A DNA stretch of 64,000 nt from an uncultured Dyadobacter sp. (GTDB lineage Bacteria > Bacteroidota > Bacteroidia > Cytophagales > Spirosomataceae). Each line of letters begins with the position of its first letter. The stretch's first letter is position 1. Positions 8,065 to 39,350 of this stretch are shown one piece after another. The stretch is taken from assembly GCF_946482605.1 (NCBI RefSeq), contig NZ_CAMLSE010000013.1:124001-188000 (forward strand), given 5' to 3'. A model generated the notes under the pieces. That model saw only the letters and a list, made by a program, of their open reading frames with translations, was not told the DNA's origin and searched no databases. The translations under genes were made by a program, and so were the position numbers.

Positions 8065-8892
8065 TTACTTGGCCTTCCTGACGAAAATATCGCCGTTCAT
8101 ATTCTTCATCATGATCTCGCTGCCGCCGCCATTGACCTTGCCCTTTACCCAATCCTCGACGCTGACTTTATACATGCCGTCCTTGGCGGAACGGACCGCC
8201 TGCGGCACGGATTTGTCGACATCCACATCGAAGTCGCTGTAAATCTCGCCGCGGTCCGATTTGAGTTTGACATCAAACTTTGCCGTGGGCGGAAGCGTCA
8301 CATCCACGTTGCCGTTGAGGGTCGAGAATGCCATGGGCGACTTGGCATCGACCGTCTTGAAATTGGCTTTCAGCAAGCCGTTCACGGTGTTGGCAACGGC
8401 CGATCCCGAAACGTTGTTGAGCCGGATATCGCCGTTCACGTTCGTGATCTCCATTTCACCATCCACGTTCTCGATCAGGATATCGCCGTCGTTAACGGTT
8501 CCTACATTCAACGCGAATTTCATGGGCACTTTGATGTTCAACTCCATATTCGTGTTGAAGAGCTTCGAGGTAACTTTTACGACGTTTTTTTCCTCTGTTG
8601 CGGTAATGTCCAGCGAACCGTTTTTCGAGATACGTTTCATACCGTCGGCATTCTCTTTCGGTTTTTCAGGTTTGTCCTGCTTCGTGCTGGCATCGATCAC
8701 TACCTGGTTTCCATTGTACCCGGTGACGCGGATGGAGCCGCGGACGAGGTTTACTCTCAGGGTACCGGGTTTGGCGGGATCGGTTAGGGGTACGGTCAGT
8801 TGTTCTTTGAGATCGTTTTGCGCCAGCACGGGAACCGTCAGGGCAGTGCCTGCGACGATGGTAACGAGGGTCAGAATACGCGGGGTTTTCAT
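8065..8892 (-). CDS. Secreted DUF4097/GIN-domain putative adhesin, copy 2
   Basis: The frame extends upstream to 9027, but the ATG at 8892 gives a proper Sec signal peptide (MKTPRILTLVTIVAGTALTV...VLAQ), 4 bases after the stop of the preceding gene. That makes a protein of about 275 residues. After residue 90 come short beta-strand repeats with the turns G-D-I, V-N-G-D-I and L-N-G-N-V-D. This right-handed parallel beta-helix-like pattern is typical of DUF4097/GIN putative autotransporter-head adhesins. A Lys/Glu-rich insert (KQDKPEKPKENADG) lies before it. The family is periplasmic or surface exposed and of unknown function. It is last in the operon with its paralogue and an ECF sigma/anti-sigma pair. 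Confidence 0.85.
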   Translation of the reverse strand: MKTPRILTLVTIVAGTALTVPVLAQNDLKEQLTVPLTDPAKPGTLRVNLVRGSIRVTGYNGNQVVIDASTKQDKPEKPKENADGMKRISKNGSLDITATEEKNVVKVTSKLFNTNMELNIKVPMKFALNVGTVNDGDILIENVDGEMEITNVNGDIRLNNVSGSAVANTVNGLLKANFKTVDAKSPMAFSTLNGNVDVTLPPTAKFDVKLKSDRGEIYSDFDVDVDKSVPQAVRSAKDGMYKVSVEDWVKGKVNGGGSEIMMKNMNGDIFVRKAK

Positions 8893-8896
8893 TTTG

Positions 8897-9760
8897 CTAT
8901 GATTGTTTTTTAAGATAGATATTGCCATTGAAAGTTTCGAATTTGTAGGTGGGACCTCCTTTGCCGATGCGGATGAAGGTTTCCGTACTGAGCTTATAAA
9001 CAGTTTTGTTCTCATGATTCTCTGCATTTTTGACCACCCTGACAGGCAGGTTTTCTACGTTGGGGAAGTCGGTGTAAAAATCGCCGTGGAATGTCTTGAA
9101 CTGGCAATCGACGGAAAGGGATGCGGGATAGGTGATCTTAATGTCCCCGTTCAGCGTCTTGAAATCTGATTCGCCCGGCGGCAGTGTCACATAGTTCACA
9201 TCCACATTGCCGTTGATGGTACGCACATTGGCCGGGCCTTTGGCATTGACGATTTTGATCGCTCCATTGACATTGTGTACGCCCAGGGAACCGGTTACGT
9301 TGTTGACGTTGATGTCGCCGCCATTCACCGTGGAAATATGGAGATTGAGCGAATAGGGCACTTTGACGGTAAAATCCAATTCAAAATTGTAGTGGATCTT
9401 CGGGCCATCCCAGTTCCTGCGCTCGCGGTTGGGACGGGAATCGAAAGGATTGGTGATGTAGGCGATAATGCTGTCCGCTGCCTGGTCGATTTCCAGTCTG
9501 AATTCCTGTTTGCCCTGATCGAGTACTTCCTGGGTCTTGGCCGAAATCTTTTTGTCGATTTCCAGCATGACTTTGTCGCCGTCGTAGCCCTCCACTTTAA
9601 TGGACCCGTTGATGTTATAAATGGCGAGCGTGTTTTGGGTGGCGTTCCCATTCATGGAAAACGATTTGCTGACATGCTCCTTGAATTCCAGCTTCTGGGC
9701 CGGGGCCTGGGTGCAGCAGAGCACTGCTCCCGCCAGCAGGGGGATTGCAAAATACTTCAT
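8897..9760 (-). CDS. Secreted DUF4097/GIN-domain putative adhesin, copy 1
   Basis: The 287-residue protein has a Sec signal peptide (MKYFAIPLLAGAVLCCTQAPAQ). A Cys pair in the hydrophobic core leaves a lipoprotein possible but without a clean lipobox. The mature part shows the same repeated turns as the next gene (NGGDINV, NGAIKIV, NGNVDVN, NGDIKIT), typical of DUF4097 beta-solenoid domains. Its similarity to the downstream gene suggests tandem duplication. It lies 21 bases after the anti-sigma gene, so the envelope proteins are probably targets of the sigma factor encoded at the head of the operon. Adhesion or envelope-stress roles are guesses from the family name. Confidence 0.85.
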   Translation of the reverse strand: MKYFAIPLLAGAVLCCTQAPAQKLEFKEHVSKSFSMNGNATQNTLAIYNINGSIKVEGYDGDKVMLEIDKKISAKTQEVLDQGKQEFRLEIDQAADSIIAYITNPFDSRPNRERRNWDGPKIHYNFELDFTVKVPYSLNLHISTVNGGDINVNNVTGSLGVHNVNGAIKIVNAKGPANVRTINGNVDVNYVTLPPGESDFKTLNGDIKITYPASLSVDCQFKTFHGDFYTDFPNVENLPVRVVKNAENHENKTVYKLSTETFIRIGKGGPTYKFETFNGNIYLKKQS

Positions 9761-9781
9761 GGCTAATAGTTGATTATGGTT

Positions 9782-10603
9782 TTATGATAGGTCTTTGATC
9801 GTTTGCTCGATTTTCACTTTCACGAGGTCATTCAGGTCCTCTTTCTGTAACAATGTCCGCAATGCTTTCACGGAGCGTTTTTCCTGCAACTTTACCATCA
9901 GGTCGGCGAGGGCTACCTGCACCATCGGAGAGTCCTGCGAGGTGAGCGATTTCACCAGCCCTTCGCGAACAGCCGCATTTCCGGCATACTGCGTCAGCGC
10001 TTCCAGCGTAACCAGCCTCACATTTACATTAGGATCGTTATTTAAGGTGGCAAACAGCGCCTCTAAGACGCGATCGTCTGCTTGTGCGATCTCACTTGTG
10101 TATCCGACTGCGCGAAGGCGCTCAGTAGCCGAAGGGTTTTCCAGGAGCGTCAGCATCATGGTGCTTTTCATGTCCTGTACCTGGGAGGCCAGCGTTTCGA
10201 TCTGTTGCTGATAGGCGGTTGCGGAGGTCTTGCTGCGGCTGGTCCTGTTGCCGATCACCCAGCCCAGGCCCACAAGCAGCAGACTGAATGCAACCTGGAC
10301 GGTCCATTGCGGCATTACAAATCCGCGGATGCTCTCCATCATGCTCTCGAAAGAGAAGCGCACCGCCGCCTTTTCCTTTTCTTTGAAATCATCGAGCATT
10401 GCATAGAAATTGTCGCGCATTGCCGCCGACGGCTCCGGTACCCTTATTTTCTCAAAGTTGTTCCAGATCTGCCTGTCGGCCTCGAATGCTTCCTGGCAAT
10501 CAGGGCATTGTGCCAGATGCTGGTTCACTTCGATCTGTTCGGCTTTGCTGAGGTTGTTGTTCAGCCATTCGGTCATCCGGTCTCGTGTATATTCGCAGTT
10601 CAT
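9782..10603 (-). CDS. Zinc-finger anti-sigma factor with HEAT-like repeats
   Basis: The N-terminus (MNCEYTRDRMTEWLNNNL...HLAQCPDCQEAF) is an anti-sigma zinc-finger domain with the H-x3-C-x2-C signature of ZAS/RsrA-like proteins. One transmembrane segment follows (TVQVAFSLLLVGLGWVIG, about residues 103-120), and the C-terminal half carries HEAT-like helical repeats (DPNVNVRLVTLEALTQY and following), presumably outside the membrane. An ATG six codons upstream (10621) would overlap the sigma gene by 14 bases. The ATG at 10603 leaves a 4-base gap and was chosen. It probably holds the upstream sigma factor at the membrane until the HEAT part receives a signal. That combination is less common than a plain zinc-finger anti-sigma. 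Confidence 0.85.
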   Translation of the reverse strand: MNCEYTRDRMTEWLNNNLSKAEQIEVNQHLAQCPDCQEAFEADRQIWNNFEKIRVPEPSAAMRDNFYAMLDDFKEKEKAAVRFSFESMMESIRGFVMPQWTVQVAFSLLLVGLGWVIGNRTSRSKTSATAYQQQIETLASQVQDMKSTMMLTLLENPSATERLRAVGYTSEIAQADDRVLEALFATLNNDPNVNVRLVTLEALTQYAGNAAVREGLVKSLTSQDSPMVQVALADLMVKLQEKRSVKALRTLLQKEDLNDLVKVKIEQTIKDLS

Positions 10604-25896: not shown

Positions 25897-26196
25897 TTAA
25901 ATCCACTTGTCTACATGGTTGGTAACTATAAACCCGCTTTTCACCTCTCTCCGAAGTAATGTCAATGCGGATTTGACTTTTTCTTCCTCGTCGATGAAGG
26001 AAATGACCATGGGCGTTTCGTCGAAACTGAACAGGTCGTTGGGGCGGCTCAGGTGCTTGCCGTCGAAGCCGAGCCGGCCGCGGTACACCGTCGCTCCCTG
26101 CACTTTCTGTCTCACCAGAAACTGCATAATGTATTCAAATAGCGGTATTTCGTCCTTCCAGTGGTCGGCACTGATGAAGATCTGGGCTTGAAGCAT
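25897..26196 (-). CDS. DUF190 family protein in RND operon
   Basis: The 99-residue protein has QAQIFISADHWKDEIPLFEYIMQFLVRQKVQGATVYRGRLGFDGK followed by PMVISFIDEEEKV, the pattern of DUF190. That family adopts a ferredoxin-like fold related to PII and CutA1 trimeric proteins. It lies one base upstream of the pump gene and 12 bases after the adaptor gene, so it is part of the same transcript. A signal-sensing or metal-binding accessory role in the efflux operon is an inference from the fold and context. Confidence 0.8.
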   Translation of the reverse strand: MLQAQIFISADHWKDEIPLFEYIMQFLVRQKVQGATVYRGRLGFDGKHLSRPNDLFSFDETPMVISFIDEEEKVKSALTLLRREVKSGFIVTNHVDKWI

Positions 26197-26208
26197 ATCC
26201 GGAGGGGG

Positions 26209-27219
26209 TTAGTAGCCGAACGATAAACCTTTGAGTTGCATGACGCCTTTCGTTACCACATCTTCGCCGCCTTTCAGCCCGCTGAATGCAACGATGCGGT
26301 CGCCGATCTGGTCGCCGATGTTCACTTCGCGACGCTCAAAAACCTGAGGTGCTGTTTTCAGAAACACATAGTTGCGGCCCTGGACGGTCACCAATGCATC
26401 TTTGTTGATACTGATTTTCTGGCCTTCGCTCAAACCGAACGCGACCGTTCCGAACATCCCCGCTTTCAGCTTTCCATTGGAGTTGTTGATGCTCACACGC
26501 AGCTTGATCATCCTGGTGGTCTGGTCCACGAGGTCGGCAATGTCGTCGATAGTCCCGGTGAAGTTTTCGTTCGGGAATGCTGTGAACTGGATGGTGCATT
26601 TGCTGCCTTTTTTGACCTGGCTAATCTCGCTCTCGGGCACGTCGCATATGATGTACGCGGTGCCTGCCGGCGCATTGCGGAGCTGTTTAGGTTCGAAACC
26701 ACCCGCTTTCAGCTTGGTTTCGTGCTCAATAATGGCCGCGCGCTCGTTGATGAGGTTCGTTTCTTCCATCGACAATGCAGTTTGCGATTCAAGCAGGTCC
26801 TTGCCGGTAGCCGCTCCATGTTCCTGCAAATCCTTGATGCGCGAGAGTTCTGTTTTACGTTGGCGGATATTGATGTTCTGGATCTGGCTGATCATCGTCA
26901 GATGTTGCAAGAGCTGGGTATAGTTACCCGCCAGTTCGGGATTATCGAAGAGCACGATATTGCCCGAAGCGCCTTCATCCGAGCGCAAAACAGTGGCCGA
27001 CACTTTCGCCGGGGCGGTCACATTTGCGATGAGCGAAGAGCTGGAAATCTTTTCAGTCTGGAAAAAATTCGCGCTCTCGGCCAGCGGAAAGGATATTTTG
27101 GTGCCTGATGTATTCACAACCGGTGTGGAATTGTCCAGCACGGGTTTGTTGGCAGCCTTATTTTTGCAGCCTGCGATCAATGTCATGGCGAGGCAGGTGC
27201 AAACGAGTAGGTTCTTCAT
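26209..27219 (-). CDS. RND efflux periplasmic adaptor (CusB/CzcB type) lipoprotein
   Basis: The 336-residue protein has a lipoprotein signal peptide ending LIAGC (Cys about residue 18). It shows the adaptor pattern: a coiled-coil hairpin in the centre (HLTMISQIQNINIRQRKTELSRIKDLQEHGAATGKDLLESQTALSMEETNLINER), flanked by barrel-type strands (AYIICDVPESEISQVKKGSKCTIQF) and a C-terminal RREVNIGDQIGDRIVAFSGLKGGEDVVTKG segment. It joins the pump to the outer-membrane channel encoded 2 bases upstream. Confidence 0.9.
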   Translation of the reverse strand: MKNLLVCTCLAMTLIAGCKNKAANKPVLDNSTPVVNTSGTKISFPLAESANFFQTEKISSSSLIANVTAPAKVSATVLRSDEGASGNIVLFDNPELAGNYTQLLQHLTMISQIQNINIRQRKTELSRIKDLQEHGAATGKDLLESQTALSMEETNLINERAAIIEHETKLKAGGFEPKQLRNAPAGTAYIICDVPESEISQVKKGSKCTIQFTAFPNENFTGTIDDIADLVDQTTRMIKLRVSINNSNGKLKAGMFGTVAFGLSEGQKISINKDALVTVQGRNYVFLKTAPQVFERREVNIGDQIGDRIVAFSGLKGGEDVVTKGVMQLKGLSFGY

Positions 27220-27221
27220 GA

Positions 27222-28478
27222 TTATTGCGCGATTTGATTGATCATTCCGGATGCGTAAAGGAGGTCGACGTAGCTCTGGCGGTACTGCCCGAGGACGTCG
27301 TAATACTGCTGCTGCGTATCGAGCCAGCTGCGCTGGGCTTCCAGGAAGTCGATGATCGTGGTGCCGCCGCGGAGGTAAGAATATTTAACACTGTTCAGGA
27401 TTGTTTGGGATTGAGTTAACAACTGGTTGAAATTCTGTAAGTTCTGTTTGTGGGTGACGTAACTCTTGTAAGCGGTCAGGATTTCGGTCTGTACCTGCGT
27501 TTCCGTTGCGCGGAGATCTTGCTCGGCCTGTTGTTTCAGTACCTGCGACTTTTTGATCTCTCCCTGGTTTCTTGAAAAAATGGGTATCTCAATCGTCCCG
27601 TACACGCCCATGTAGTGTGCCTTGTTCTGTGGGTTGTAGATCAGGCCGAGCTCCGGTACCGGCAATGCGCTCGACTTTTGCAGTTTGATATTCGCATCGG
27701 CCACGTCCATGGTCGACTTGATAGCCTGGATATCGGTACGGTTTTGCAATGCCTGCTCCACGATAGCGTCCATCTGATCGGGGAATGCGAATGCGAACTG
27801 ATCGGTGGTGTCGATCCGGATCGAGTCCTGCACGCCCATGAGAAATTTCAGGTTCGACAGCTGGTTGCGGTATTCCTGCGATGCCGATTTGAGCTGAATG
27901 TCGTACTGGTTGGCAAGAAGCTCCGTGCGCGCGAGGTCGGTGGTGGTAATCACCTGATTTTTCAGGCGCAGGCGGTTGATATTGGCCAGCGAATCGATAT
28001 TTGCCTTCGCAGTGCCCAATAAATCGAGTTGCTTACGTGCTGCCCAGACATCCAGCCATTTCTGCGCAACTGTCTGAAACAGATGTCGTTCCGTGTCTGC
28101 ATATTGCTTTTGGGTCAGTCTTACGTTTTGCTGTGCGAAATTGATCTTGTTCTCTCGCTGTACAGGCAGCTGAAAAGGCTTGGTAACCTGCCACCATACC
28201 TGCCGGTTGGCGCCATTGAACCAGCCGGTATTTTCAGGGAACTTGGACGTCTGCACGAGTTGCAACGACTGGTTGTTCAGGATCACATTCGGGCGGAGCT
28301 GCGCGGTGGTGATGTCGGCCTGGGAAATGTCGACATTGAATTGCTCTCGTTTCAGGATGGGGTTATTGGACTTTGCCGTTTGCAGGGCTTGCTGCAAATT
28401 GTAGGTTGTCTGGGCCCTTGCCGACGCCATTCCCACCAGAAACAGGATGAGAACCCGCTTAAAAACTGGATAGCACAT
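27222..28478 (-). CDS. TolC family outer membrane efflux protein
   Basis: The 418-residue protein has a signal peptide (MCYPVFKRVLILFLVGMASARAQ) and the TolC repeat pattern: YNLQQALQTAKSNNPILKREQ early, long amphipathic helices, and YSYLRGGTTIIDFLEAQRSWLDTQQQYYDVLGQYRQSYVDLLYASG near the end. This is the outer-membrane component of the tripartite metal efflux system. It is the first gene of the operon and is divergent from the histidine kinase gene with 219 bases between. Confidence 0.9.
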   Translation of the reverse strand: MCYPVFKRVLILFLVGMASARAQTTYNLQQALQTAKSNNPILKREQFNVDISQADITTAQLRPNVILNNQSLQLVQTSKFPENTGWFNGANRQVWWQVTKPFQLPVQRENKINFAQQNVRLTQKQYADTERHLFQTVAQKWLDVWAARKQLDLLGTAKANIDSLANINRLRLKNQVITTTDLARTELLANQYDIQLKSASQEYRNQLSNLKFLMGVQDSIRIDTTDQFAFAFPDQMDAIVEQALQNRTDIQAIKSTMDVADANIKLQKSSALPVPELGLIYNPQNKAHYMGVYGTIEIPIFSRNQGEIKKSQVLKQQAEQDLRATETQVQTEILTAYKSYVTHKQNLQNFNQLLTQSQTILNSVKYSYLRGGTTIIDFLEAQRSWLDTQQQYYDVLGQYRQSYVDLLYASGMINQIAQ

Positions 28479-28697: not shown

Positions 28698-30059
28698 ATG
28701 CATTTTATCGTAGCCTTCTTTCTCGTCCAATTTGCCCAGCAAGCGATGCAGCATGACGACAAGCTGCCGAAATGGGCCAATTTCTTTAAATACGCGCGTT
28801 ATTACGTGTTTATATTGCTTGGCGTGTACTATGCTGCAAGGCAGCCTGAAATGTTTACGTGGGTCTGGAACGTCTCGCTGCTCGGGTTCCTCGGGTTCTT
28901 TTACAAGGAAGAGGATTTCAGGCCCATCCGGTCCACGGTCCAGTCCATTGTGCCGTTCGTGGGCGTGTCTATGCTCAGCGACTTTGTCGAACTGGTTTTG
29001 CCAAAATTTTACAAAAGCTATGGCGATTTCTTCGGCGTGGCCACTATGTTTGCCTGGATATTCTGTTTCGTCATATGGTTTTATGCCAAAAAGCAGCAGA
29101 AAATTCTGGCGCAGGAGCGCCGCGACCGGCTGCGCGACGAAGAGATCGCCAAAGAGCAGAAACAGTCATTGGAATACCTGGTGGCCGAACGCACACAGGA
29201 ACTGACCCAGCAAAAGGAAGAGTTACAAAAGGCGATCGAAGAGCTGAAAGCGACCCAGAACCAGCTCATTCAGAGCGAAAAAATGGCTTCTTTGGGCGAG
29301 CTGACCGCCGGTATCGCGCATGAGATCCAGAACCCGTTAAACTTTGTCAATAATTTCTCGGAAGTGTCTGTGGAGCTGTGCCAGGAGCTGGAAGAAGAGA
29401 TCGACAAGACGGATATTACGGATAACGACAAGGATTATATCAAAGGTATTATCAGCGATCTGAGCCAGAACCAGCAGAAAATCACGCACCACGGTAAACG
29501 TGCCGATTCAATCGTGAAAGGAATGCTGCAACATTCGAGGGCTTCGTCGGGGGAAAAGGAGCTTGTGGAGGTGAATGCGCTCGCGGATGAGTACATGCGC
29601 CTCGCATACCATGGTCTGCGCGCGAAGGATAAGGAGTTTAATGCGGCATTAGTCACTGATTTTGACCCGTCGATCGGGGCCGTCAATGTGCTGCCACAAG
29701 ACCTGGGCCGTGTTTTTCTCAATCTTTTTACCAATGCATTCTATGCGGTTGCGGAAAAGAAGCGAAAATTGACCGAATCCGGCCAGTTGGGCGACTATAA
29801 GCCGGAAGTGAGGATTAGCACCAAGAAATTTGATAACAAACTATATATCAGGGTTTCTGATAATGGGACGGGTATGCCTGAACACGTAAAGGCAAAGATA
29901 TTTCAACCATTTTTTACGACGAAACCAACCGGACAGGGTACGGGCCTGGGCCTTTCGATGAGCTACGACATCATCACCAACGCCCACGGCGGTGTGCTGG
30001 AAGTGGATACCGAGGAAGGTAAAAAAACGGAGTTCCGCATTACCATACCCATCGCCTGA
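28698..30059 (+). CDS. Membrane sensor histidine kinase
   Basis: The 453-residue protein has about four N-terminal hydrophobic segments (residues 1-130), with no periplasmic sensor domain of any size. A coiled coil follows (residues 140-195), then the phosphoacceptor box GELTAGIAHEIQNPLNFVNNF (His 208), N-box NLFTNAFYAV, G1 VSDNGTGMP and G2 GQGTGLGLSMSYDI. All catalytic motifs are intact. A TACTTTG near 28637 resembles a -7 element. It heads an operon with two response regulators and an HD protein. Confidence 0.92.
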   Translation: MHFIVAFFLVQFAQQAMQHDDKLPKWANFFKYARYYVFILLGVYYAARQPEMFTWVWNVSLLGFLGFFYKEEDFRPIRSTVQSIVPFVGVSMLSDFVELVLPKFYKSYGDFFGVATMFAWIFCFVIWFYAKKQQKILAQERRDRLRDEEIAKEQKQSLEYLVAERTQELTQQKEELQKAIEELKATQNQLIQSEKMASLGELTAGIAHEIQNPLNFVNNFSEVSVELCQELEEEIDKTDITDNDKDYIKGIISDLSQNQQKITHHGKRADSIVKGMLQHSRASSGEKELVEVNALADEYMRLAYHGLRAKDKEFNAALVTDFDPSIGAVNVLPQDLGRVFLNLFTNAFYAVAEKKRKLTESGQLGDYKPEVRISTKKFDNKLYIRVSDNGTGMPEHVKAKIFQPFFTTKPTGQGTGLGLSMSYDIITNAHGGVLEVDTEEGKKTEFRITIPIA

Positions 30060-30074
30060 TTAACGCAATCCAAC

Positions 30075-30449
30075 ATGAAAATACTGGTTGTAGACGACGA
30101 GGAAGACGTCAAATCGCTTTTTGAGCAGAAGTTCCGGCGCGAAATCCGCGGCGGCCAATTCGAGTTTTCGTTCGCCTTTTCGGGTGAAGAAGCGCTGGAA
30201 TATATGCATGACCATCCGTCGGAGGTAGTGATGATCTTATCGGACATCAACATGCCCGGCATGAGCGGGATCGAACTCCTCAAAAGGATCCGCGCCGACT
30301 ACCCGGCAGCGCCTCCGCAGGTCATGATGATCACCGCTTACGGAGATAGTGCTAACCACGACCAGGCGATACAGCTCGGTGCCGACGATTTCCTGACCAA
30401 GCCGGTCAATTTTAATGAACTGAAAGAGAAACTGCTCCATATTTTATGA
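30075..30449 (+). CDS. Receiver-only response regulator
   Basis: The 124-residue protein is a bare CheY-like receiver: acidic pair VVDDEED (residues 5-11), phosphoacceptor Asp 57 in [11 protein letters not shown], and conserved Thr/Lys in MITAYGDS and FLTKPVN. No output domain is present, so it probably passes phosphate or acts by protein contact. It lies 15 bases after the kinase gene and overlaps the next gene by 4 bases (ATGA), which implies coupled translation. The two receivers of this operon are alike in sequence. Confidence 0.92.
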
Positions 30450-31492
30450 AAGCCAAGATCCTGGTAGTGGATGATGAGGCAGATCTGCAACTGTTGATCA
30501 AGCAGAAATTCAGGCGGCAGATCCGTGAACAGCAATACGAATTCATTTTTGCGGAAAACGGCCTGAAAGCGCTGGAAACGCTTGGGGAACATCCCGATGT
30601 GGACATGGTGCTGAGCGATATCAATATGCCTGAAATGGATGGGCTTACACTGCTGGTCAGGCTGGGCGAAATGAGCCCCATCCTGAAATCGGTGATCGTT
30701 TCAGCCTACGGCGACATGGATAATATCCGTACGGCCATGAACCGCGGCGCGTTTGATTTTCTGACCAAGCCCATTGACTTTAAGGACCTGGAAGTCACGA
30801 TGGAGAAAACGCTGCAATACGTCTCGCAGTTGAAGGACACATTGAAGGCAGTGCGGGAAAACGATATTTTGCGGATGTACGTCGATGCTTCGGTATTGCA
30901 GTTCATGACGCAGGAAACCTTCGAGAAATCCCTCATGACAAGCGAGAACATTGAGGGAACGGTCGTTTTTATGGATATGTGCGGGTTCACAGCCATCTCC
31001 GAAAAGGAGCGGCCCGACGTGGTGGTGAAGCTTATTAACAAGTATTTCGATGTAATGGTCAAAGAGATCATTGCCCAGGGCGGGCATGTCGACAAGTTCA
31101 TGGGCGATGCCGTAATGGCCGTGTTCCGGGGCGATTACCACCTCGACAGGGCCGTGGAATGCTCTCTGGCCGTGCGGAATCACATCAATGGTTTTCATGA
31201 GGAGCTGTCCGACCAGTCCGGCTATTTTCCAAAGGTTTCAATCGGCATTAATTCAGGGGAAATGGTGTCGGGCAACATCGGATCGGCGGCATTGAAACGC
31301 CTGGACTATACCGTGATCGGCGATGTGGTGAATATCGCGCAGCGGTTGCAGTCAATCGCCAAGCCGGGCCAGGTAGTCGTATCCGAGTCGGGCTATGAAC
31401 AGCTGAAAGAGGCATTTCAGTGCACAGTCGTGGGCGAAGTCAACCTTAAAAACAAATCGAACCCGGTTTTGGTGTACGAAGTGCTCGAATAG
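30446..31492 (+). CDS. Response regulator fused to a class III adenylate/guanylate cyclase
   Basis: The 348-residue protein has an N-terminal receiver (Asp 58 in [11 protein letters not shown]) and a C-terminal class III cyclase. The metal-binding Asp residues are 177 (FMDMCGFT) and 221 ([12 protein letters not shown]). The purine-selecting positions are Lys 217 and Thr 289 ([11 protein letters not shown]), the pair found in many bacterial adenylate cyclases, and the transition-state Asn 296 and Arg 300 (NIAQRLQ) are present. It should therefore make cAMP when phosphorylated, though the nucleotide is inferred. The neighbouring convergent gene encodes a protein with a complete cyclic-nucleotide-binding domain. 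Confidence 0.92.
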
Positions 31493-31494
31493 CC

Positions 31495-32082
31495 ATGGAA
31501 ATCGAAAAGGCTCAGGATTACATTATCGCGAGGCTGGAAAGCCAGCTGGACCCTACATTGTTTTACCACGGGATCCATCATACGATCGACGTCGTTCATG
31601 CAGCAATGGACATCGCAAGGCTGGAAGGGCTGATGGATGAAGAATCGATACGGTTATTGTGGACGGCCGCTCTGTATCACGACAGCGGCTTCCTGACCAC
31701 CTATCAGGGCCATGAGGAGGCCGGTTGCGCGCTGGTACGGGCCGTTTTGCCCGGATTTGGATACAGCGGAACCCAAATTGAAACCATATGCGGGATGATC
31801 ATGGCCACGAAGATCCCGCAAAGCCCGCAAAATGCCCTGGAAATGATACTTTGCGACGCGGACCTGGATTACCTGGGCCGGGGCGATTTTGAAAGCATTG
31901 CGGCCACATTATTCGAAGAATTGAAAGCAAGGGATATGGTGAAGGACATTCCCGCATGGGATGCCGTGCAGGTCCGGTTCCTGGAAGCGCACGCTTACTG
32001 GACCGCCTCGCAGCGGAAGCGCCGGGGTGCCGCCAAGCAACGGCGTCTCCGGCGCCTCAAAAAGACTACACGAAAGTTATAA
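31495..32082 (+). CDS. HD-domain phosphohydrolase-like protein
   Basis: The 195-residue protein has an HD metal-binding set: His pair in YHGIHHTIDVV (residues 24-34), HD in ALYHDSGF (62-63) and Asp in LCDADLDYLGR. A basic C-terminal tail (SQRKRRGAAKQRRLRRLKKTTRKL) is unusual and might bind nucleic acid or membrane. It lies 2 bases after the cyclase gene and is last in the operon. Hydrolysis of a nucleotide is a plausible role, possibly clearing the signal made by the cyclase, but HD proteins are diverse. Confidence 0.85.
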   Translation: MEIEKAQDYIIARLESQLDPTLFYHGIHHTIDVVHAAMDIARLEGLMDEESIRLLWTAALYHDSGFLTTYQGHEEAGCALVRAVLPGFGYSGTQIETICGMIMATKIPQSPQNALEMILCDADLDYLGRGDFESIAATLFEELKARDMVKDIPAWDAVQVRFLEAHAYWTASQRKRRGAAKQRRLRRLKKTTRKL

Positions 32083-35000
32083 CTGGCGCATTTTCTCGTT
32101 CTGCACGCGTATACGCTGGCACAGAATGCGAAGCACATTGCGCAGGATCTCGTCGCGTTCTTCCATCAGTTCAAAGAAATCTTCCTGATCGATACGGAAT
32201 ACCAGTGCGTCGGTTTCAGCTACCGTCGTAGCCGAGCGCGGCTCGGTGTCGAGCAATGCCAGCTCGCCGAAAATTTCTCCCTTATCGAACAATGCAAGTT
32301 GTTTCGGTCCGTCGTAAATACCTACCTGGCCGGTGTAAATGATATACATCGAATCTCCGATATCTCCTTTGGCAAATATTTGTTGGCCGTCGCTGTAAGT
32401 CACCTCCTTCATGATGGGGGCAATGGAGCTCAGTACGTTCTCAGGGGTTTGCTCAAAAAGCCTTGTGTTTTTGAGTACGATCACCCTTTCCATTTCGGAA
32501 ATCTGCTGGGTAGGTTCGGCGTGTTTCATAGGTATTCGAAGCGAAAATTGAAGATCGGGCCGCTGGGCCAGTAAGGAGTATTTTTCATAAACAGCCTCCC
32601 GGATCAGGCGGGAAGGATGGGTCGCTAGTTTTTCGAGATAGCCCAGGTCGGACTCCGCCACGGAACAGTTGCGGACAGCGAGTGCGATGGTCCAGGTCGT
32701 GAACGATCGTTCATGCTGGGACAGTATGCAGGTGATCAGCGACAGGCCCGGGTCTGCATTGCCCATGTACTGGCGGAGTGCATCGCGCTTGCGTTGGATG
32801 GATATGTTTTCAAACAATGCATGGAGCGAAGGGTACAACATGCGCGGCAGCAGGCTCTCGATCAGTTCGAGCGAATTGGCGCGTTTTTCCTTGCTTGCAT
32901 GGCGGATTCCTTTCCATGCGCTTTGCACCGCATCCTTATCGTACTGCATCATGAAGAGATAAAACAGCCGCTGGGCCGTCAGTTCCAGTTCGTATTCCAG
33001 TGCGTTATTCCAGATCAGATCCGATTCAGAGGCGTCCATGCCATTCAGAAGCTGACCTGCATGGATGAGTTCTTTTTCTACAAATTCAGGGATAAGTGTT
33101 TTATAATCAGTTATTAATGTGTAGTTGCTGAGCGCCTTCAATGCAGCGATATGGGTGTAACTATCTATATTTTCAATATGGTTTATTCTCTCTTTTCTTT
33201 TAGTACTATCTATACTTTCAATACTAATCAATAGTTTAGTTTGGTAAATATTTTTAATAAGGTTAAAAAGTATTTGAAGTATAAATTCATGCCGACCTTT
33301 TTCAGCCATTTTGATGAAGGTCTTAATGCGATCACCGCGGGTATCCTGCTGCAACCACTCCTCGATAATGCGAATGCCAAGGTCGCCGGAATGGATCATC
33401 GCATGAATGGTTTCGGGCGTGAGTGTGCCCGTGAGCACGAGGCGCAGGTCGCGCAGCAGGGCAGGGGAGCCCACCGTCGCCGCTACCTCGATCGCGTAGT
33501 TGCGCACACGCTGTGAGCCATTGTGAATGCAGCTTTTGAGGAGGTTTTCGTATGAATTGATGCCGGTCACTTTGAGACAGTCGAGCGCGGCCATCTGGTC
33601 GCTTTCCTGCTCGGAACCGAATAGCCGTTGCAACGTGCCGTGGATCAGCGGCAGCGACTTTCCGGCGTCCCAGCAGCCGATAATCGTACCCTTTACAATG
33701 TCGAGGTCGTGGTGGGCGAGGAAGCGGGCGGTTTGTTCGTCGTTCAGGCGGCCGTTCGCACAGGCCAGGCGCACGGCCAGCACCTGGCAGGCCGCGTCGG
33801 GTTCGTTTTCGATGTACTGGATAAATGTGCCCGAAAGCTCCGGTTTTTCGAGTGTTGAAAGGGTTTGCAAAGTTTTGAGTCTGACCTGCACGAAAGGGCT
33901 TTTCAGTAACTCGTCGGCGTGCTTGCGGAAGAGCGACACCTTGTTCCGTGCGAGCCAATCGATCGCATTCAGAACCTCTTCCCTGCGGTCGCTTTGCAGG
34001 TTTTCGGTGATGATCGGCAATGCTTCGGCAGGGGTGGCCATTTCACCGCTGCGGATAAACCGCTTACTGATCGCCGATTTCAGTTCGAGCATATAATGGC
34101 GGTACGTTTTCCGGAAAACCAGCAATGCGGCAACCGCAAACAGCAGCGACAGGTCGAATGTAAGACTGATATCGCTCCAATGCTGCGTATAAACTACCCA
34201 GAGCATGGCGCCGGCAATGAGCATGCCCAGCGGCTCAAAAAGGCCTTTCGCGAGGGTATGCCCTTTCAAACGGGTTTTGGTAGAAAGCGGTTGGAATAAA
34301 ACAAGGAAAACCGGGTCGAAAATGGTGCGCCTTACCAGCTCGAAAAGCAGGTACGCAATGCAATAATAAACGAGCAGCGAAGGCTCGTCTTTGCGGAAAT
34401 AGGAAGATACGAGCAGCCCGAGCGAAATGGCGATGGTCGTCAGCGGGAGCAGGTATAATGTGAGTTTTATGCCAAAACGTTCTACGGTTTTACTCGAAAA
34501 CAGCATTTTTACAAACGTCGAAATCACGTAAGTGAGCGTCAGCAGCGAGCCTACAAAAACGATCACATCGTGCTGGCTGTGGAATTTGTATTTGACATTA
34601 ACAAAAAAGTGGTACTCAATCCAGGTCGCGGTGGCCGCAATGGCCACCATTCCGATGCACAACGACGTGAGCAGCTTGTTCCCGCCAAAGTATTTCTGGA
34701 TAATGCGCGAGTCGGACTCCGTCGTGCGGGTCCGGGCGTGATGCGGATTGGGAATGTCGGTGTGGCGGAAGGTCAGTATCTGCGTGTAGAAAGCCAATGC
34801 AAAGAATACCAGTGAGATAGCGAGCAAAATTGCGAGCACCGAGGGTGAATGGATGAGCACGGCCAGCACGGCCCCTAATGCCTTGGCAGGCATGTCCCCC
34901 GAACCGATCACGCTGAACAGCCTTTTACTCTGCCGCACATCGAAAACCAATGCGGATAACCCCCAGAATTCCAGGTTGATAAGCAGGTAAATGATCCGGT

Positions 35001-35349
35001 AACCAACCATTACGGCAATGGCAGTAGCGACCCCGTGTCCCACCAGCAACAGCCCCATCACCACAACCACCATAAACAGCGAGGCCATCATCGTGCCGAG
35101 GCTCAGCTTTCTCAGCAAAAGGTGATGTTCAAAATACTCATAGATCTTCCCGGAGGCCATTACGGCCAGGGCGGCGGCGATGTAAGCAAGCGGCAGCGAA
35201 TATTCGGGGTGGTTTTCGAGCAGGAGCACGTTGGCGGAGACATACACCAGCGTGGTACCGACATTCGTGAAGAAGTTATGAAAGAAAAAAAGGATCGTTT
35301 GCGGGTTAATGGACTTCGTAAAGCGGTTTTGGCTTAAAAATGGGATCAT
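32077..35349 (-). CDS. Nucleotide-transporter-like membrane protein with HEAT repeats and cNMP-binding domain
   Basis: The frame extends to 35433, but the ATG at 35349 (MIPFLSQNRFTKSINPQ) directly precedes the first helix, giving about 1090 residues. Residues 1-430 form about 12 helices resembling the MFS/ATP-ADP-carrier (Npt/NTT) type, with RLFSVIGSGDMPAKALGAVLAVL as a landmark. Residues 450-930 are helical HEAT-like repeats. Residues 960-1085 form a cyclic-nucleotide-binding domain with a full phosphate-binding cassette (FGELALLDTEPRSATTVA), so it should bind cAMP or cGMP. It overlaps the end of the HD gene by 6 bases, tail to tail. Residues about 687-730 are encoded by an AT-rich insert. 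Transport itself is unproven. Confidence 0.88.
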   Translation of the reverse strand: MIPFLSQNRFTKSINPQTILFFFHNFFTNVGTTLVYVSANVLLLENHPEYSLPLAYIAAALAVMASGKIYEYFEHHLLLRKLSLGTMMASLFMVVVVMGLLLVGHGVATAIAVMVGYRIIYLLINLEFWGLSALVFDVRQSKRLFSVIGSGDMPAKALGAVLAVLIHSPSVLAILLAISLVFFALAFYTQILTFRHTDIPNPHHARTRTTESDSRIIQKYFGGNKLLTSLCIGMVAIAATATWIEYHFFVNVKYKFHSQHDVIVFVGSLLTLTYVISTFVKMLFSSKTVERFGIKLTLYLLPLTTIAISLGLLVSSYFRKDEPSLLVYYCIAYLLFELVRRTIFDPVFLVLFQPLSTKTRLKGHTLAKGLFEPLGMLIAGAMLWVVYTQHWSDISLTFDLSLLFAVAALLVFRKTYRHYMLELKSAISKRFIRSGEMATPAEALPIITENLQSDRREEVLNAIDWLARNKVSLFRKHADELLKSPFVQVRLKTLQTLSTLEKPELSGTFIQYIENEPDAACQVLAVRLACANGRLNDEQTARFLAHHDLDIVKGTIIGCWDAGKSLPLIHGTLQRLFGSEQESDQMAALDCLKVTGINSYENLLKSCIHNGSQRVRNYAIEVAATVGSPALLRDLRLVLTGTLTPETIHAMIHSGDLGIRIIEEWLQQDTRGDRIKTFIKMAEKGRHEFILQILFNLIKNIYQTKLLISIESIDSTKRKERINHIENIDSYTHIAALKALSNYTLITDYKTLIPEFVEKELIHAGQLLNGMDASESDLIWNNALEYELELTAQRLFYLFMMQYDKDAVQSAWKGIRHASKEKRANSLELIESLLPRMLYPSLHALFENISIQRKRDALRQYMGNADPGLSLITCILSQHERSFTTWTIALAVRNCSVAESDLGYLEKLATHPSRLIREAVYEKYSLLAQRPDLQFSLRIPMKHAEPTQQISEMERVIVLKNTRLFEQTPENVLSSIAPIMKEVTYSDGQQIFAKGDIGDSMYIIYTGQVGIYDGPKQLALFDKGEIFGELALLDTEPRSATTVAETDALVFRIDQEDFFELMEERDEILRNVLRILCQRIRVQNEKMRQL
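33160..33223. repeat. Degenerate direct repeat in an AT-rich coding insert
   Basis: ACTATCTATATTTTCAATA (33160-33178) recurs at 33205-33223 with one mismatch, 45 bases apart and so in frame. On the minus strand it encodes the paired peptides IESIDS and IENIDS. The surrounding 33110-33290 stretch is far more AT-rich than the rest of the gene. Confidence 0.6.
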
Positions 35350-35513
35350 AGGAGTTGGAATGCTAGCGTCGCTACTGTAAAATAAACACTTATTATTCCT
35401 TTTAAAAACCCGTTGGGGTCGATGACATATCAAATAGAATCAAAGTGGCACTTATGTCTGCCCGGTTCGCTCAACATGACAGTGAAGGTGCATTTGGACG
35501 TAAGCCCTGCTCC

Positions 35514-37781
35514 TCAGCCGCGAATGATCAGCACCGAGGGAGAATTGGACAGCCATACACTGTGCGATTCGACCGCTTTGATCCAGCTTTCGAGGCTGAT
35601 CACCATCAGGTCCTGGCCTTGGAGAAAGTCTTTTTCCAGCACGTTTTCGTAAAGCAGCGTCACGTTTTCAGGCGAATGCGACTGTAATGCGTGCAATGCT
35701 TCGCCGGTCTCGACATGCTGGCTCACCGTCTGCGACGGGTCCATGATCGTCAGTTGCAGCCCGCTGACGCCCAAAAGGCGTTCGCCGAAAGGAAGCAGGC
35801 GACGGTCTTCTGGCGTGAACAGCGGCATGAATACCTGCTGCACCTGTTCGAGGTTTTTCTCGATCAGAATGCCGACGGGCACTTTTACCGACCGGATGAT
35901 GTGGGTCGTGCGTTCGTCGAAAACGTCGGAATGGAAGAGTTTTTCCTTGCCGGTAATGGTATCGAAAAGGCGTTCGCGGCTCACGAACTTCGAAGTGAAA
36001 CCCAATATTTTACCCAAAAACGTACCCTCGAAAACCGACTTGCCGATCCCGATCATCAGCATGTCGAACTCGCCTTCGTTGGCGGTTTCGATAATGTCGT
36101 GCTCGATGCTCTGCGAAGGTTTGAACAGCGAAGTGAAAGACATCTTCAACTCATGCGCCTCTTCGTTGATGGGGCGGAAAGTTTCGTACTGGTATTCTTC
36201 GGTATTGACCTGGTTGAGGTAGCTGCTGGGCGAAAGATGCAATGCGGTAATGTGCTGTTCATCAGGCTGGCCGGACACCAGCTTGTCGGCCACACGAAGC
36301 ATTTTGCGACCTCCCTGCGGACTGGCGAAAGCGATCAGGACCGAAAAACGGGACGGTTCGTGTACCGGGTGCAATTCTTCTTTGGGTGCAGGCAGGAATC
36401 TGTCGATCAGATCAAGCGCGGGGCCGGTCATACAAGTCGTTGCCAAGGCCATGATCACCATCATCGTGAAGATCTCCGGAGAAAGCACGCCAATGTCGTA
36501 GCCGATATTGAGCACCACCAGTTCCACCAGTCCCCGGGTATTCATCAGCGAGCCGATGATCAGACTGTCACGCCAGGATTGCTTGACAAACAATGCGGCT
36601 ACCGTACTTCCTACGAACTTGCCGATCACCGCCGCTGAGATGATCAGTCCGGTGACGAACCACAGATGAGGATCGTTCAGCAGCCCTATTTGTGTTCTTA
36701 AACCTGTAAATACAAAGAATAGGGGCAGCAGCAATACCAGTGAGACGTCTTCTACTTTTTCAATAAAAATATTGCGGAAACGCTGGTTGTCGGGCATGAT
36801 CACCCCGGCCATAAAAGCCCCGAAAAGCGCGTGGATGCCGATTACCTCTGTACAATAGGAGGAGACGAGCAGCACCAGAAAGAATAGCGCAACCACAGGC
36901 TTCGTAAGCCCCTCGCGGTATGCATAATGGTCACCGATGCGTTTCAGCATTGGCTTGACGACTTGCAGCATCACCAGCACATAAGCGACCGAAAGGAGGA
37001 TGGTGTAGATCGAACTCATAAACTCGCCCGCCTTCACGATCGCGATCACGGCGGCGAGGATACACCAGGCGGTGATGTCGTCGGTAGCGGCGCAGGTAAT
37101 GACCATCATGCCCAGGCGGGTGCGGGAGAGTCCGCGCTCCTGCACTATACGCGCGAGGACCGGAAATGCAGTGATACTCAATGCGATACCGGTAAACAGG
37201 GCAAACGAAAGGAAACTGATGCCTTCGGGTGCAAACTCGGTGTACATATATAATGCAAGCCCGACACCGAGCGCGAAAGGAAGGATAATGCTGGCGTGAC
37301 TGATTACGATCGCCTCCTGCGCCTTGGTTTTCAGCACTTTCAGGTCCAGCTCCATGCCGATGATGAACATGAAGAGAATCAGTCCTACCTGGCTGAGAAA
37401 CTGCAAATTGCTTAACGAAGTCTTAGGGAAAATGAACCCGGATGCCTCTGGAAAGAACATTCCGAGCACGGAGGGCCCCAGGAAAATTCCGGCTGCGATT
37501 TCCCCGATCACGGTCGGTTGCCCGATGGCCTTGCAAATCCAGCCAAACAGCCGGGCAACGATGATAATGGTGACGATTTGAGCGAGGAGCGTGGCGAGCG
37601 GGTGGGTGAGGTTGTGCCCGAAGGTATCTGTAAATTGCTCCCAGGAAGAGGCAGTTTGTACTTTTTGGGTAATCTGGCCGGCGTTTTCGAGAAGTGTGCC
37701 CTGTCGGATAAAGAAGTAAAGCAGGGCTGCGAAAACTCCGATGGTAATGCAGTAAAAGAGTACATTGCGAATGTTCTTCAT
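35514..37781 (-). CDS. CPA2 monovalent cation/proton antiporter with C-terminal cytoplasmic region
   Basis: The protein has about 755 residues from the ATG at 37781; an ATG nine codons upstream is the alternative. After a first helix, residues 65-450 form the Na+/H+ exchanger domain with about 12 helices. Landmarks are PTVIGEIAAGIFLGPSVLG, MELDLKVLKTKAQEA and CAATDDITAWCILA, the latter carrying the paired Asp of CPA2 transporters. The last 270 residues (FSVLIAFASPQGGRKMLRVADKL and later MIGIGKSVFEGTF) resemble a universal-stress-protein-like soluble domain. It is a monovalent cation/H+ antiporter of the KefB/NapA group. It lies 164 bases downstream of the cNMP-binding protein start, both on the minus strand. 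Confidence 0.88.
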   Translation of the reverse strand: MKNIRNVLFYCITIGVFAALLYFFIRQGTLLENAGQITQKVQTASSWEQFTDTFGHNLTHPLATLLAQIVTIIIVARLFGWICKAIGQPTVIGEIAAGIFLGPSVLGMFFPEASGFIFPKTSLSNLQFLSQVGLILFMFIIGMELDLKVLKTKAQEAIVISHASIILPFALGVGLALYMYTEFAPEGISFLSFALFTGIALSITAFPVLARIVQERGLSRTRLGMMVITCAATDDITAWCILAAVIAIVKAGEFMSSIYTILLSVAYVLVMLQVVKPMLKRIGDHYAYREGLTKPVVALFFLVLLVSSYCTEVIGIHALFGAFMAGVIMPDNQRFRNIFIEKVEDVSLVLLLPLFFVFTGLRTQIGLLNDPHLWFVTGLIISAAVIGKFVGSTVAALFVKQSWRDSLIIGSLMNTRGLVELVVLNIGYDIGVLSPEIFTMMVIMALATTCMTGPALDLIDRFLPAPKEELHPVHEPSRFSVLIAFASPQGGRKMLRVADKLVSGQPDEQHITALHLSPSSYLNQVNTEEYQYETFRPINEEAHELKMSFTSLFKPSQSIEHDIIETANEGEFDMLMIGIGKSVFEGTFLGKILGFTSKFVSRERLFDTITGKEKLFHSDVFDERTTHIIRSVKVPVGILIEKNLEQVQQVFMPLFTPEDRRLLPFGERLLGVSGLQLTIMDPSQTVSQHVETGEALHALQSHSPENVTLLYENVLEKDFLQGQDLMVISLESWIKAVESHSVWLSNSPSVLIIRG

Positions 37782-37824
37782 CAGTACGTATGAGAGTGAA
37801 GCGCGCAAAATACTGAAATAAGCC

Positions 37825-37859
37825 GAAAGATGGTAGGACTTGGGGCCCTACCATCTTTC
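37825..37859 (-). terminator. Stem-loop terminator of the SusCD/enolase operon
   Basis: GAAAGATGGTAGG (37825-37837) pairs perfectly with CCTACCATCTTTC (37847-37859), 6 bases after the stop of the enolase-superfamily gene. The T-tract after it on the minus strand is weak. Confidence 0.65.
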
Positions 37860-37865
37860 AAAAAC

Positions 37866-39350
37866 CTAGCTCCAAAGCCGGTCGTGCGAACGTTTTTCGT
37901 TCCAGTCGGGGGTTGGCGCGAAGAAGCTTTTGTCCTTCGGATGCAGGTGTTTTTTAACCTCTTCCTCGTTGAGCTCGATGCCGAGGCCTGGCGCTTCCAG
38001 GGGCACAGGCGCATAGCCTTTGTCGATCAGCTTACGACCATCGGTAGTTTTCACCAGGCTTTCCCACCAGGGTACATCCACGGAATGGTGTTCCAATGCG
38101 AGGAAGTTCTGGGTGGCGGCGGCGCAATGTACGTTGGCCATGAAGCTCACCGGCGTACCCGCGAAGTGCATCGCCATCGCGATGCCGTGATCTTCGGCGT
38201 AGTCTCCAATGCGTTTCGTTTCGAGCAAGCCACCCGACGATGCGAGGTCAGGATGAACGATATCCACCGCACGCTGCTCGATCAAGGCCTTGAAACCTTC
38301 TTTGAGGTAGATATCTTCGCCGGTAAGGGTGGGTGTTTCCAATGCGTCGGAGATGGTCTTCCATTGGTCGGTATACTCCCAGGGCACCATATCCTCGAAC
38401 CACGCGAGGCGGTATTTGTCGAGTGCCTTGCCGAGGCGAATGCCGTTATTAAGGTCAAAATGGCCATAATGGTCGGATGACAATGGAATTTCGTATCCTA
38501 CCACACCACGTACTTCCTCTACAACCTTTGCCATTTCGTCCAGGCCTTTCGGAGTGATCTGGATCGCTGTGAAAGGGTGCTTGGTGTTTGCATAGGAATG
38601 GTAATCTCCCGCCCATTGCGAGAAGCCGCCTCCCCACACCTTGTTGTTCACGACGCTGCCTTCACTGTTGCGCAACATACCGATCGAAATATCCATTTTA
38701 AGCCAGGTATAACCCTGGTCCTGCGTACGGTATTTGATCTTTTGCTTAAACTCGTTGATATCGTTCGACTCCGGCGTATCCGCGTACAAGCGAACCTTAT
38801 CTCGGTAACGCCCGCCGAGCAGCTGCCAGCAAGGCACGCCGTAGGCTTTTCCGCAGAGATCCCAAAGAGCCATTTCCACACCGCACACACCACCCGCCTG
38901 GCGGCCATGGTAACCAAATTGCTTGATCGATTTGAACAGCTGCTCCACATTGCAGGGGTTTTGTCCGATCAAATGGCTTTTGAGGAACAATGCATAACGC
39001 TCGTCGGCACCGTCGCGCACCTCGCCGAGGCCGTAAATGCCCTGGTTGGTATCAATGCGGATAATGGGTGTACGGCCCACATTCTGCACAATGCAATAGC
39101 GCAAGTCGGTGATTTTCAATTCCGAAGGCTTAGATGCTCGGCTCACTTTGGAGGTAGCCTGTGCAATGGTGTCTTCGGTCGACATCGACATGAAACCGCC
39201 CAAAGCAATCCCGCCGACCGCGGTTTTGCGCAGGAAGTTCCGGCGGCTATCTTTGGTAGAAGGGCTCGCAATTTCCGCCGCAGCAGCCGCTTTTTCAGCG
39301 CTTTCAACCTGCTTATTAGATTCAATGATTTGTTTGAGTATGTTTTTCAT
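37866..39350 (-). CDS. Tat-exported enolase-superfamily (mandelate racemase/muconate lactonizing type) protein
   Basis: The 494-residue protein has a twin-arginine signal (SRRNFLRKTAVGGIALGGFMSM, Arg 36-37) after a long polar N-terminus. The catalytic part has the mandelate racemase/MLE pattern: YGLGEVRDGADERYA, WDLCGKAYGVPCWQLLGGRYRDKVRLYAD, the LKMDIS strand, metal ligands near SSDHYGHFD, WFEDM and TGEDIY, and a possible catalytic His in AMAMHFAGTPVS. Relatives are sugar-acid dehydratases or epimerases, usually cytoplasmic. Here export is predicted. It is last in the SusCD operon, with a REP-like repeat in the 152-base gap before it. The exact substrate is unknown. Confidence 0.88.
   Translation of the reverse strand: MKNILKQIIESNKQVESAEKAAAAAEIASPSTKDSRRNFLRKTAVGGIALGGFMSMSTEDTIAQATSKVSRASKPSELKITDLRYCIVQNVGRTPIIRIDTNQGIYGLGEVRDGADERYALFLKSHLIGQNPCNVEQLFKSIKQFGYHGRQAGGVCGVEMALWDLCGKAYGVPCWQLLGGRYRDKVRLYADTPESNDINEFKQKIKYRTQDQGYTWLKMDISIGMLRNSEGSVVNNKVWGGGFSQWAGDYHSYANTKHPFTAIQITPKGLDEMAKVVEEVRGVVGYEIPLSSDHYGHFDLNNGIRLGKALDKYRLAWFEDMVPWEYTDQWKTISDALETPTLTGEDIYLKEGFKALIEQRAVDIVHPDLASSGGLLETKRIGDYAEDHGIAMAMHFAGTPVSFMANVHCAAATQNFLALEHHSVDVPWWESLVKTTDGRKLIDKGYAPVPLEAPGLGIELNEEEVKKHLHPKDKSFFAPTPDWNEKRSHDRLWS

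Follow-up and report, generated by a model that had tools for sequence, protein, structure and literature searches.

Known systems and the locus

Response-regulator adenylate cyclases, in which a receiver is joined to a class III catalytic domain, are a known kind of protein. Class III adenylate cyclases carry two metal-binding Asp residues, a transition-state Asn and Arg, and an adenine-selecting Lys together with Thr or Asp. Fusions of an NTT transporter domain, HEAT repeats and a cyclic-nucleotide-binding domain (cNBD) are also known; the functions of NTT fusion proteins are called unknown in the available text of Major, Embley and Williams (2017, PMC5381601), where it was proposed that cAMP from an adenylate cyclase might adjust their transport. 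For Pycsar, the accessible part of PMC11224242 reports base-selecting signatures of PycC cyclases and an Asn, at the place equivalent to CRP residue 128, as the uracil reader of PycTIR, N143 being conserved only in PycTIR among the proteins compared there. Here we describe a locus in a 64,000-nucleotide stretch of an uncultured Dyadobacter sp. (NZ_CAMLSE010000013.1, positions 124,001 to 188,000; hereafter the window), in which a receiver-cyclase and an HD protein are encoded beside an NTT-HEAT-cNBD fusion.

The locus is read as a self-contained second-messenger module, in which a kinase controls a cyclic-nucleotide circuit that acts on an NTT transporter, with a probability of roughly 0.58. 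The kinase would phosphorylate the separate receiver, the one fused to the cyclase, or both, and the receiver-cyclase, to judge from its invariant adenylate-type Lys and Thr residues, would make cAMP. The messenger is expected to bind the C-terminal cNBD, whose cassette is present in the sequence, and the cNBD, via the HEAT repeats, may gate nucleotide exchange by the NTT domain, while the small HD protein would hydrolyse the messenger. In relatives, the cyclase and transporter genes occur together far above chance, which suggests that the transporter answers to a cyclic-nucleotide signal. The two-component-controlled cAMP source with a local membrane effector, as proposed in a preliminary description of this DNA, is supported.

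Four genes lie on the forward strand: a sensor histidine kinase (28698..30059, 453 aa) and a receiver-only response regulator (30075..30449, 124 aa), both from the open reading frame (ORF) list and Pfam, a receiver-class III cyclase fusion (30446..31492, 348 aa; ORF list, Pfam and alignment), and the HD protein, a likely cyclic-nucleotide phosphodiesterase (31495..32082, 195 aa; Pfam, fold and motif comparison). ORF calls gave spacings of 15, -4 (a 4-base overlap) and 2 bases, from which a single transcript is probable. The fusion gene lies on the reverse strand at 32077..35349 (ATG, 1090 aa) or 32077..35433 (TTG, 1118 aa) and overlaps the HD gene tail to tail by 6 bases. The ATG start at 35349 is favoured, as close homologues are about 1090 aa long; residue numbers of the fusion are counted from the TTG (35433). 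The preliminary description had given an operon with 2-15 base gaps or a 4-base overlap, a histidine kinase with intact motifs, an adenylate-type cyclase and a membrane protein with a cyclic nucleoside monophosphate (cNMP) cassette in this tail-to-tail position; the coordinates and spacings were reproduced and all four elements recovered, while the identity of the membrane protein as an NTT-transporter fusion had not been recognised. The nearest relatives are Dyadobacter, with 94% identity of the cyclase to that of L001 and 92% for the fusion.

Conservation of the cyclase-fusion neighbourhood

Three sets were compared: a family sample of 101 genomes (G001-G101), an order sample of 241 genomes from which G001-G101 were left out and in which partial matches were kept, and 80 loci, the best of at least 567 stretches encoding a cyclase relative in a GTDB contig scan. 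In the family sample, the fusion was found in 55 genomes, the cyclase in 68 and both in 53. The two genes lay within 15 kb in 33 of these 53 and within 6 kb in 26, where by our own arithmetic about 0.25 of 53 would be expected by chance (15-kb reach each way, 6.5-Mb genome). Among the 33, 16 were convergent, 12 codirectional and 5 divergent. A stronger HD match (E 8.2e-64 or better) occurred in 63 genomes, to which the HD counts refer, the weaker matches, mostly frames of about 400 aa, being excluded; any HD match at 1e-25 was present in 71 of 101, and six of the 63 retained matches sit in long frames (494-500 aa, one 1903). HD stood beside the fusion in 26 of 46 family-sample genomes. All segments of split fusion matches were counted; with the main segment alone this becomes 25, and the 6- and 15-kb counts are the same.

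Outside the family, 45 genomes of the order sample matched the fusion model (some only by the HEAT-cNBD part), 42 the cyclase and 23 both. Both genes were within 15 kb in 18 of the 23 and within 300 bases in 13, all 13 convergent; one of these, G424, has a HEAT-cNBD frame without the NTT part. The preliminary description had staked its reading on the cyclase and the cNMP protein being neighbours in relatives, and in many of them they are. Of the 80 loci, 6 have the fusion close to the cyclase, and the exact order cyclase-HD-fusion was likewise found in 6 (five Dyadobacter, one Siphonobacter); judged by coordinates, 13 of the 53 family genomes that encode both proteins have it, the parts being rearranged elsewhere. 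The fusion stands directly ahead of the kinase, receiver and cyclase genes on one strand in L081, L084, L092, L100 and L109 (some with intervening genes), divergent from them in L083, L089 and L090, and tail to tail with the cyclase in L096, L101, L103, L105, L106, L107 and L110. Because proximity outlasts the rearrangement of the loci, a function behind it is indicated, and a chance neighbourhood was rejected as very unlikely, given conservation in several arrangements across many genomes.

Several counts weigh against the module. The genes are not found within 15 kb of each other in 20 of the 53 family genomes (15 of the 20 on different contigs) and in 5 of the 23 order genomes with both. 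Two of 55 family genomes with a fusion have no cyclase and 15 of 68 with a cyclase no fusion, while outside the family sample the corresponding numbers are 22 of 45 and 19 of 42. The genomes are also related, so the counts are not independent. The 20 family genomes, and the many order genomes with one gene and not the other, fit housekeeping cAMP signalling with a fusion that ignores the cyclase and whose proximity is inherited gene order. We consider this quite improbable, given that proximity is kept in three relative orientations, with varying genes between, in genomes of about 4-9 Mb, and that a single class III cyclase and a single canonical cassette were found in G001. This genome, to which L001 belongs, was assembled from a metagenome and represents the closest relative compared; genome-wide statements rest on such relatives and not on the window's own genome.

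The NTT-HEAT-cNBD protein

All three parts of an NTT-HEAT-cNBD protein were found in the fusion, each on the reverse strand: a membrane domain of NTT fold (34060..35304, residues ~44-458), followed by a helical, HEAT-like repeat region (32569..34032, residues ~468-955) and a C-terminal cNBD (32080..32478, residues ~986-1118). The cNBD was matched by Pfam cNMP_binding with an E of 6.7e-21, and its family PF00027 was found in all 16 aligned members (the window and 15 relatives). HEAT_2 scored 23.8 bits in the window, under the cut-off of 27.7; at E up to 1 all 16 members match it, and helical repeats are present in the structure model. The middling confidence of that model (mean pLDDT, the predicted local distance difference test, 72.6) counts against the reading. 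As no Pfam ATP/ADP translocase match was obtained at E up to 1 in the 16 fusions, the NTT identity rests on evidence other than Pfam; some homologues are named ATP/ADP translocase in JGI records.

The same missing match, the MFS_1 match of 3 of the 16 members, the low sequence similarity to CpNTT1 and the HEAT repeats, which suggest protein contacts, would suit an NTT domain that has given up transport and acts instead as a receptor or scaffold anchored in the membrane. Across 18 sequences, however, the membrane part keeps many of its polar and charged residues unchanged, and we hold a loss of transport to be quite unlikely.

Kinase, receiver and receiver-cyclase

The kinase has a hydrophobic N-terminus, and its H-box (AHEIQNPLNF), N and G boxes were seen by eye; HATPase_c was matched, with HisKA at 26.1 bits slightly under its cut-off of 26.9. 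The lone receiver matched Response_reg, and the receiver-cyclase matched Response_reg (~30458-30793) and Guanylate_cyc (~30959-31462). In an alignment of the window with 80 relatives picked for their similarity to its cyclase, the metal-binding D177 and D221, the adenine-selecting K217 (31094-31096) and T289 (31310-31312), and N296 were invariant (81/81), and R300 was kept in 80 of 81. These adenylate-type residues make cAMP the probable product. In 73 of the 80 loci, the gene immediately 5' of the cyclase, no more than 150 bases away, encodes a receiver only. In G001, PF00211, a class III cyclase family, has a single match, the orthologue of the window cyclase; other cyclase classes were not searched.

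In 32 of the 80 loci (L014, L061, L066 and others), two to five homologous kinase genes precede a single receiver-cyclase in tandem, as if many signals fed one cyclase. Three kinases were checked: one contains TPR repeats, and another matches 7TMR-DISM slightly under the cut-off.

The cNBD and the identity of the messenger

The phosphate-binding cassette FGELALLDTEPRSA (32230..32271, reverse strand, residues 1055-1068) has the Glu and Arg that a CRP-type cAMP receptor requires. G001 has 33 PF00027 matches, 32 of them above the cut-off; in none of its 32 other matches, aligned to the window cNBD, are the Glu and Arg of FGELA..PRSA both present. In the nearest, G001:C9:179259, Asp replaces Glu, and Arg-Ser is in place if read ungapped.

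Other observations on the receptor side speak against a simple cAMP circuit. In an ungapped C-helix alignment with E. coli CRP, Gln/Asn and not Thr/Ser occupy positions 127/128, and Asn1112 (32098..32100, reverse strand), at the position of CRP Ser128 and PsPycTIR Asn143, matches the residue of the cUMP receptor PycTIR. G001 also has a PycTM-type frame, an HD-PycTM fusion, as a possible further receptor. All 16 alignment members have the Asn, as do 34 of 35 fusion ORFs in the loci retrieved, namely 29 of 29 chosen by cassette pattern and a length above 800 aa and 5 of 6 cNBD-bearing fusion ORFs missed by that choice and then added, the exception being an Asp in L102. The same module might thus run on another messenger, the effector reading cUMP or another cNMP and belonging with Pycsar-type rather than CRP-type cAMP signalling. 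An Arg five residues before the Asn and the R-S of the window cassette are both as in PsPycTIR, N143 is restricted to PycTIR among the proteins compared in the available text of PMC11224242, and in PADLOC the cNBD matches PycTIR/TIR effectors (best E 2.6e-15) as well as a PycC model; in Flavobacteriaceae, 13 of 17 genomes with the orthologous cyclase also have PycTM behind it. This version of the module is nevertheless unlikely, since the cyclase is of the adenylate type at K217 and T289 with none of the three PycC signatures. The cyclase points to cAMP, the specificity of the receptor is less clear, and the Asn is taken as a caution and the ground of a rival, not as a conclusion.

The HD protein

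The HD protein matched Pfam HD and carries the motifs YHxxxH (H25, H29), H62-D63, H73-E74, A122-D123-L124 and Q159-V-x-F162. Its fold is that of class I phosphodiesterases (PDEs) over nearly the whole length (PDE4, PDE7, PDE10) at about 18-20% identity. In a local hhalign comparison with PDE4D, YHNxxH, HD, ADL and Q..F were in register in a weak match (P 0.0077, probability 5%), and the global mode gave no useful alignment. PDEase_I matched 5 of 23 members at E up to 10, with a best E of 0.0025. Two results pull the other way: the PDEase_I score of the window protein was 10.8 bits with a cut-off of 24.8, and the generic HD hydrolase 2pq7 equals the PDEs in Z in the structure comparison. Foldseek of the model returned 2pq7 as the one match at E up to 0.001, with PDEs at about 0.01, and the HD profile found HD hydrolases best among PDB sequences (2pq7 4.3e-8; PDE8A/PDE9A E 0.26-0.98). 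From fold and motifs, the protein is likely a compact relative of class I phosphodiesterases that hydrolyses the messenger, and the earlier suggestion that it removes the signal gains structural support from the modelled fold.

Other effectors beside the cyclase

On the same strand and no more than 150 bases 3' of the cyclase, 23 of the 80 loci have an HD homologue as the next gene, 13 a PycTM homologue (seven PycTM homologues were checked by Pfam) and 14 another gene. The cyclase was found in 17 of 120 genomes of Flavobacteriaceae, the family of L048, and in 13 of these PycTM lies downstream on the same strand, 12 times within 340 bases and once at 973; frames of at least 380 aa are excluded from the counts of stand-alone PycTM. 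Counted by eye, 38 of the 101 family-sample genomes join HD and PycTM in a single frame of about 390-490 aa; the one at G001:C9:1296039-1297247 stands alone, away from the cyclase. PycTM frames of about 390-490 aa are common in Flavobacteriaceae, where the HD part was not checked.

In L085, L095 and L099, the fusion is divergent from three or four kinase genes in tandem, no cyclase gene lying between; L085 and L099 also have a PycTM gene nearby. In L068 (Mongoliibacter), the kinase and receiver genes of the cyclase operon are separated by a gene (8158-9930) for a cNBD-patatin (NTE-like) phospholipase, possibly a further effector. A YitT-type membrane protein adjoins the cyclase or HD gene in L031 and L063 (cyclase strand) and L044 (opposite strand), and a YitT-type gene is directly downstream of the cyclase in 5 of the 80 loci.

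The window cyclase matches PycC models in PADLOC across its cyclase domain (best 4.5e-25). None of the BcPycC, EaPycC and AnPycC base-selecting signatures was found in the 81 adenylate-type sequences, mapped by spacing from the metal Asp (for BcPycC assumed to be residue 98). The HD protein and the fusion had no PycTM match, and the fusion matches PycTIR models only via its cNBD. With the signatures absent and no PycTM or PycTIR effector adjoining, Pycsar proper was rejected for the window, and the PADLOC PycC match was not taken as Pycsar.

A broader reading is possible but doubtful: Bacteroidota may have in common a core of kinase(s), receiver and receiver-cyclase to which interchangeable membrane effectors are coupled, NTT-HEAT-cNBD in Cytophagales, PycTM in Flavobacteriaceae and, beside these, HD-PycTM fusions. 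In that case, a wider kinase-controlled cyclic-nucleotide system would gate membrane permeability, with Pycsar-type effectors as one of its uses and NTT-HEAT-cNBD as its regulated gate for nucleotides, which might respond to a pyrimidine or broad-range messenger.

On either side of the locus, Pfam identified a CPA2-type antiporter and an enolase-superfamily (MR/MLE) protein after the fusion (35514-39350), in the same place in L001-L004, and DUF190, HlyD-type and outer-membrane efflux genes divergent from the kinase (25897-28478), of which the HlyD and OEP genes are retained in L001.

Comparison with known systems

The literature was judged from titles and abstract openings for Bacteroidota receiver-cyclases, where nothing on this operon was found; for DUF5706 no paper was found, and for an NTT fusion with a cyclase gene only PMC5381601 was to the point. 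The parts are of known kinds, and their linkage was not met in the literature searched at title and abstract level. A conserved neighbouring cyclase and a likely phosphodiesterase would provide a control circuit, open to testing, by which free-living bacteria could regulate nucleotide transport. The tie between an adenylate-type cyclase, probably driven by a phosphorelay, and effectors known from antiphage Pycsar bears on the origin of those effectors and, by inference, on automated Pycsar calls.

The window receiver-cyclase resembles response-regulator adenylate cyclases in domain order and catalytic residues and differs in the separate receiver gene directly ahead (73/80 loci) and in the effector or HD gene often behind or beside it. 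The HD protein shares the fold of PDE4, PDE7 and PDE10 over nearly its full length, but has only 195 aa, about 18-20% identity and a PDEase_I score under the cut-off. With Pycsar, as presented in the accessible part of PMC11224242, the locus shares a class III cyclase with an adjoining membrane/cNBD effector and the PycTIR-like Asn in the cNBD, and PycTM is a cyclase neighbour in Flavobacteriaceae, whereas the window has kinase and receiver genes, an adenylate-type cyclase and no PycTM or PycTIR in the operon. The fusion has the same three-part architecture as the NTT-HEAT-cNBD proteins of PMC5381601; the available text of that paper does not connect them with cyclase, kinase or HD genes, and here such a link is shown across Cytophagales.
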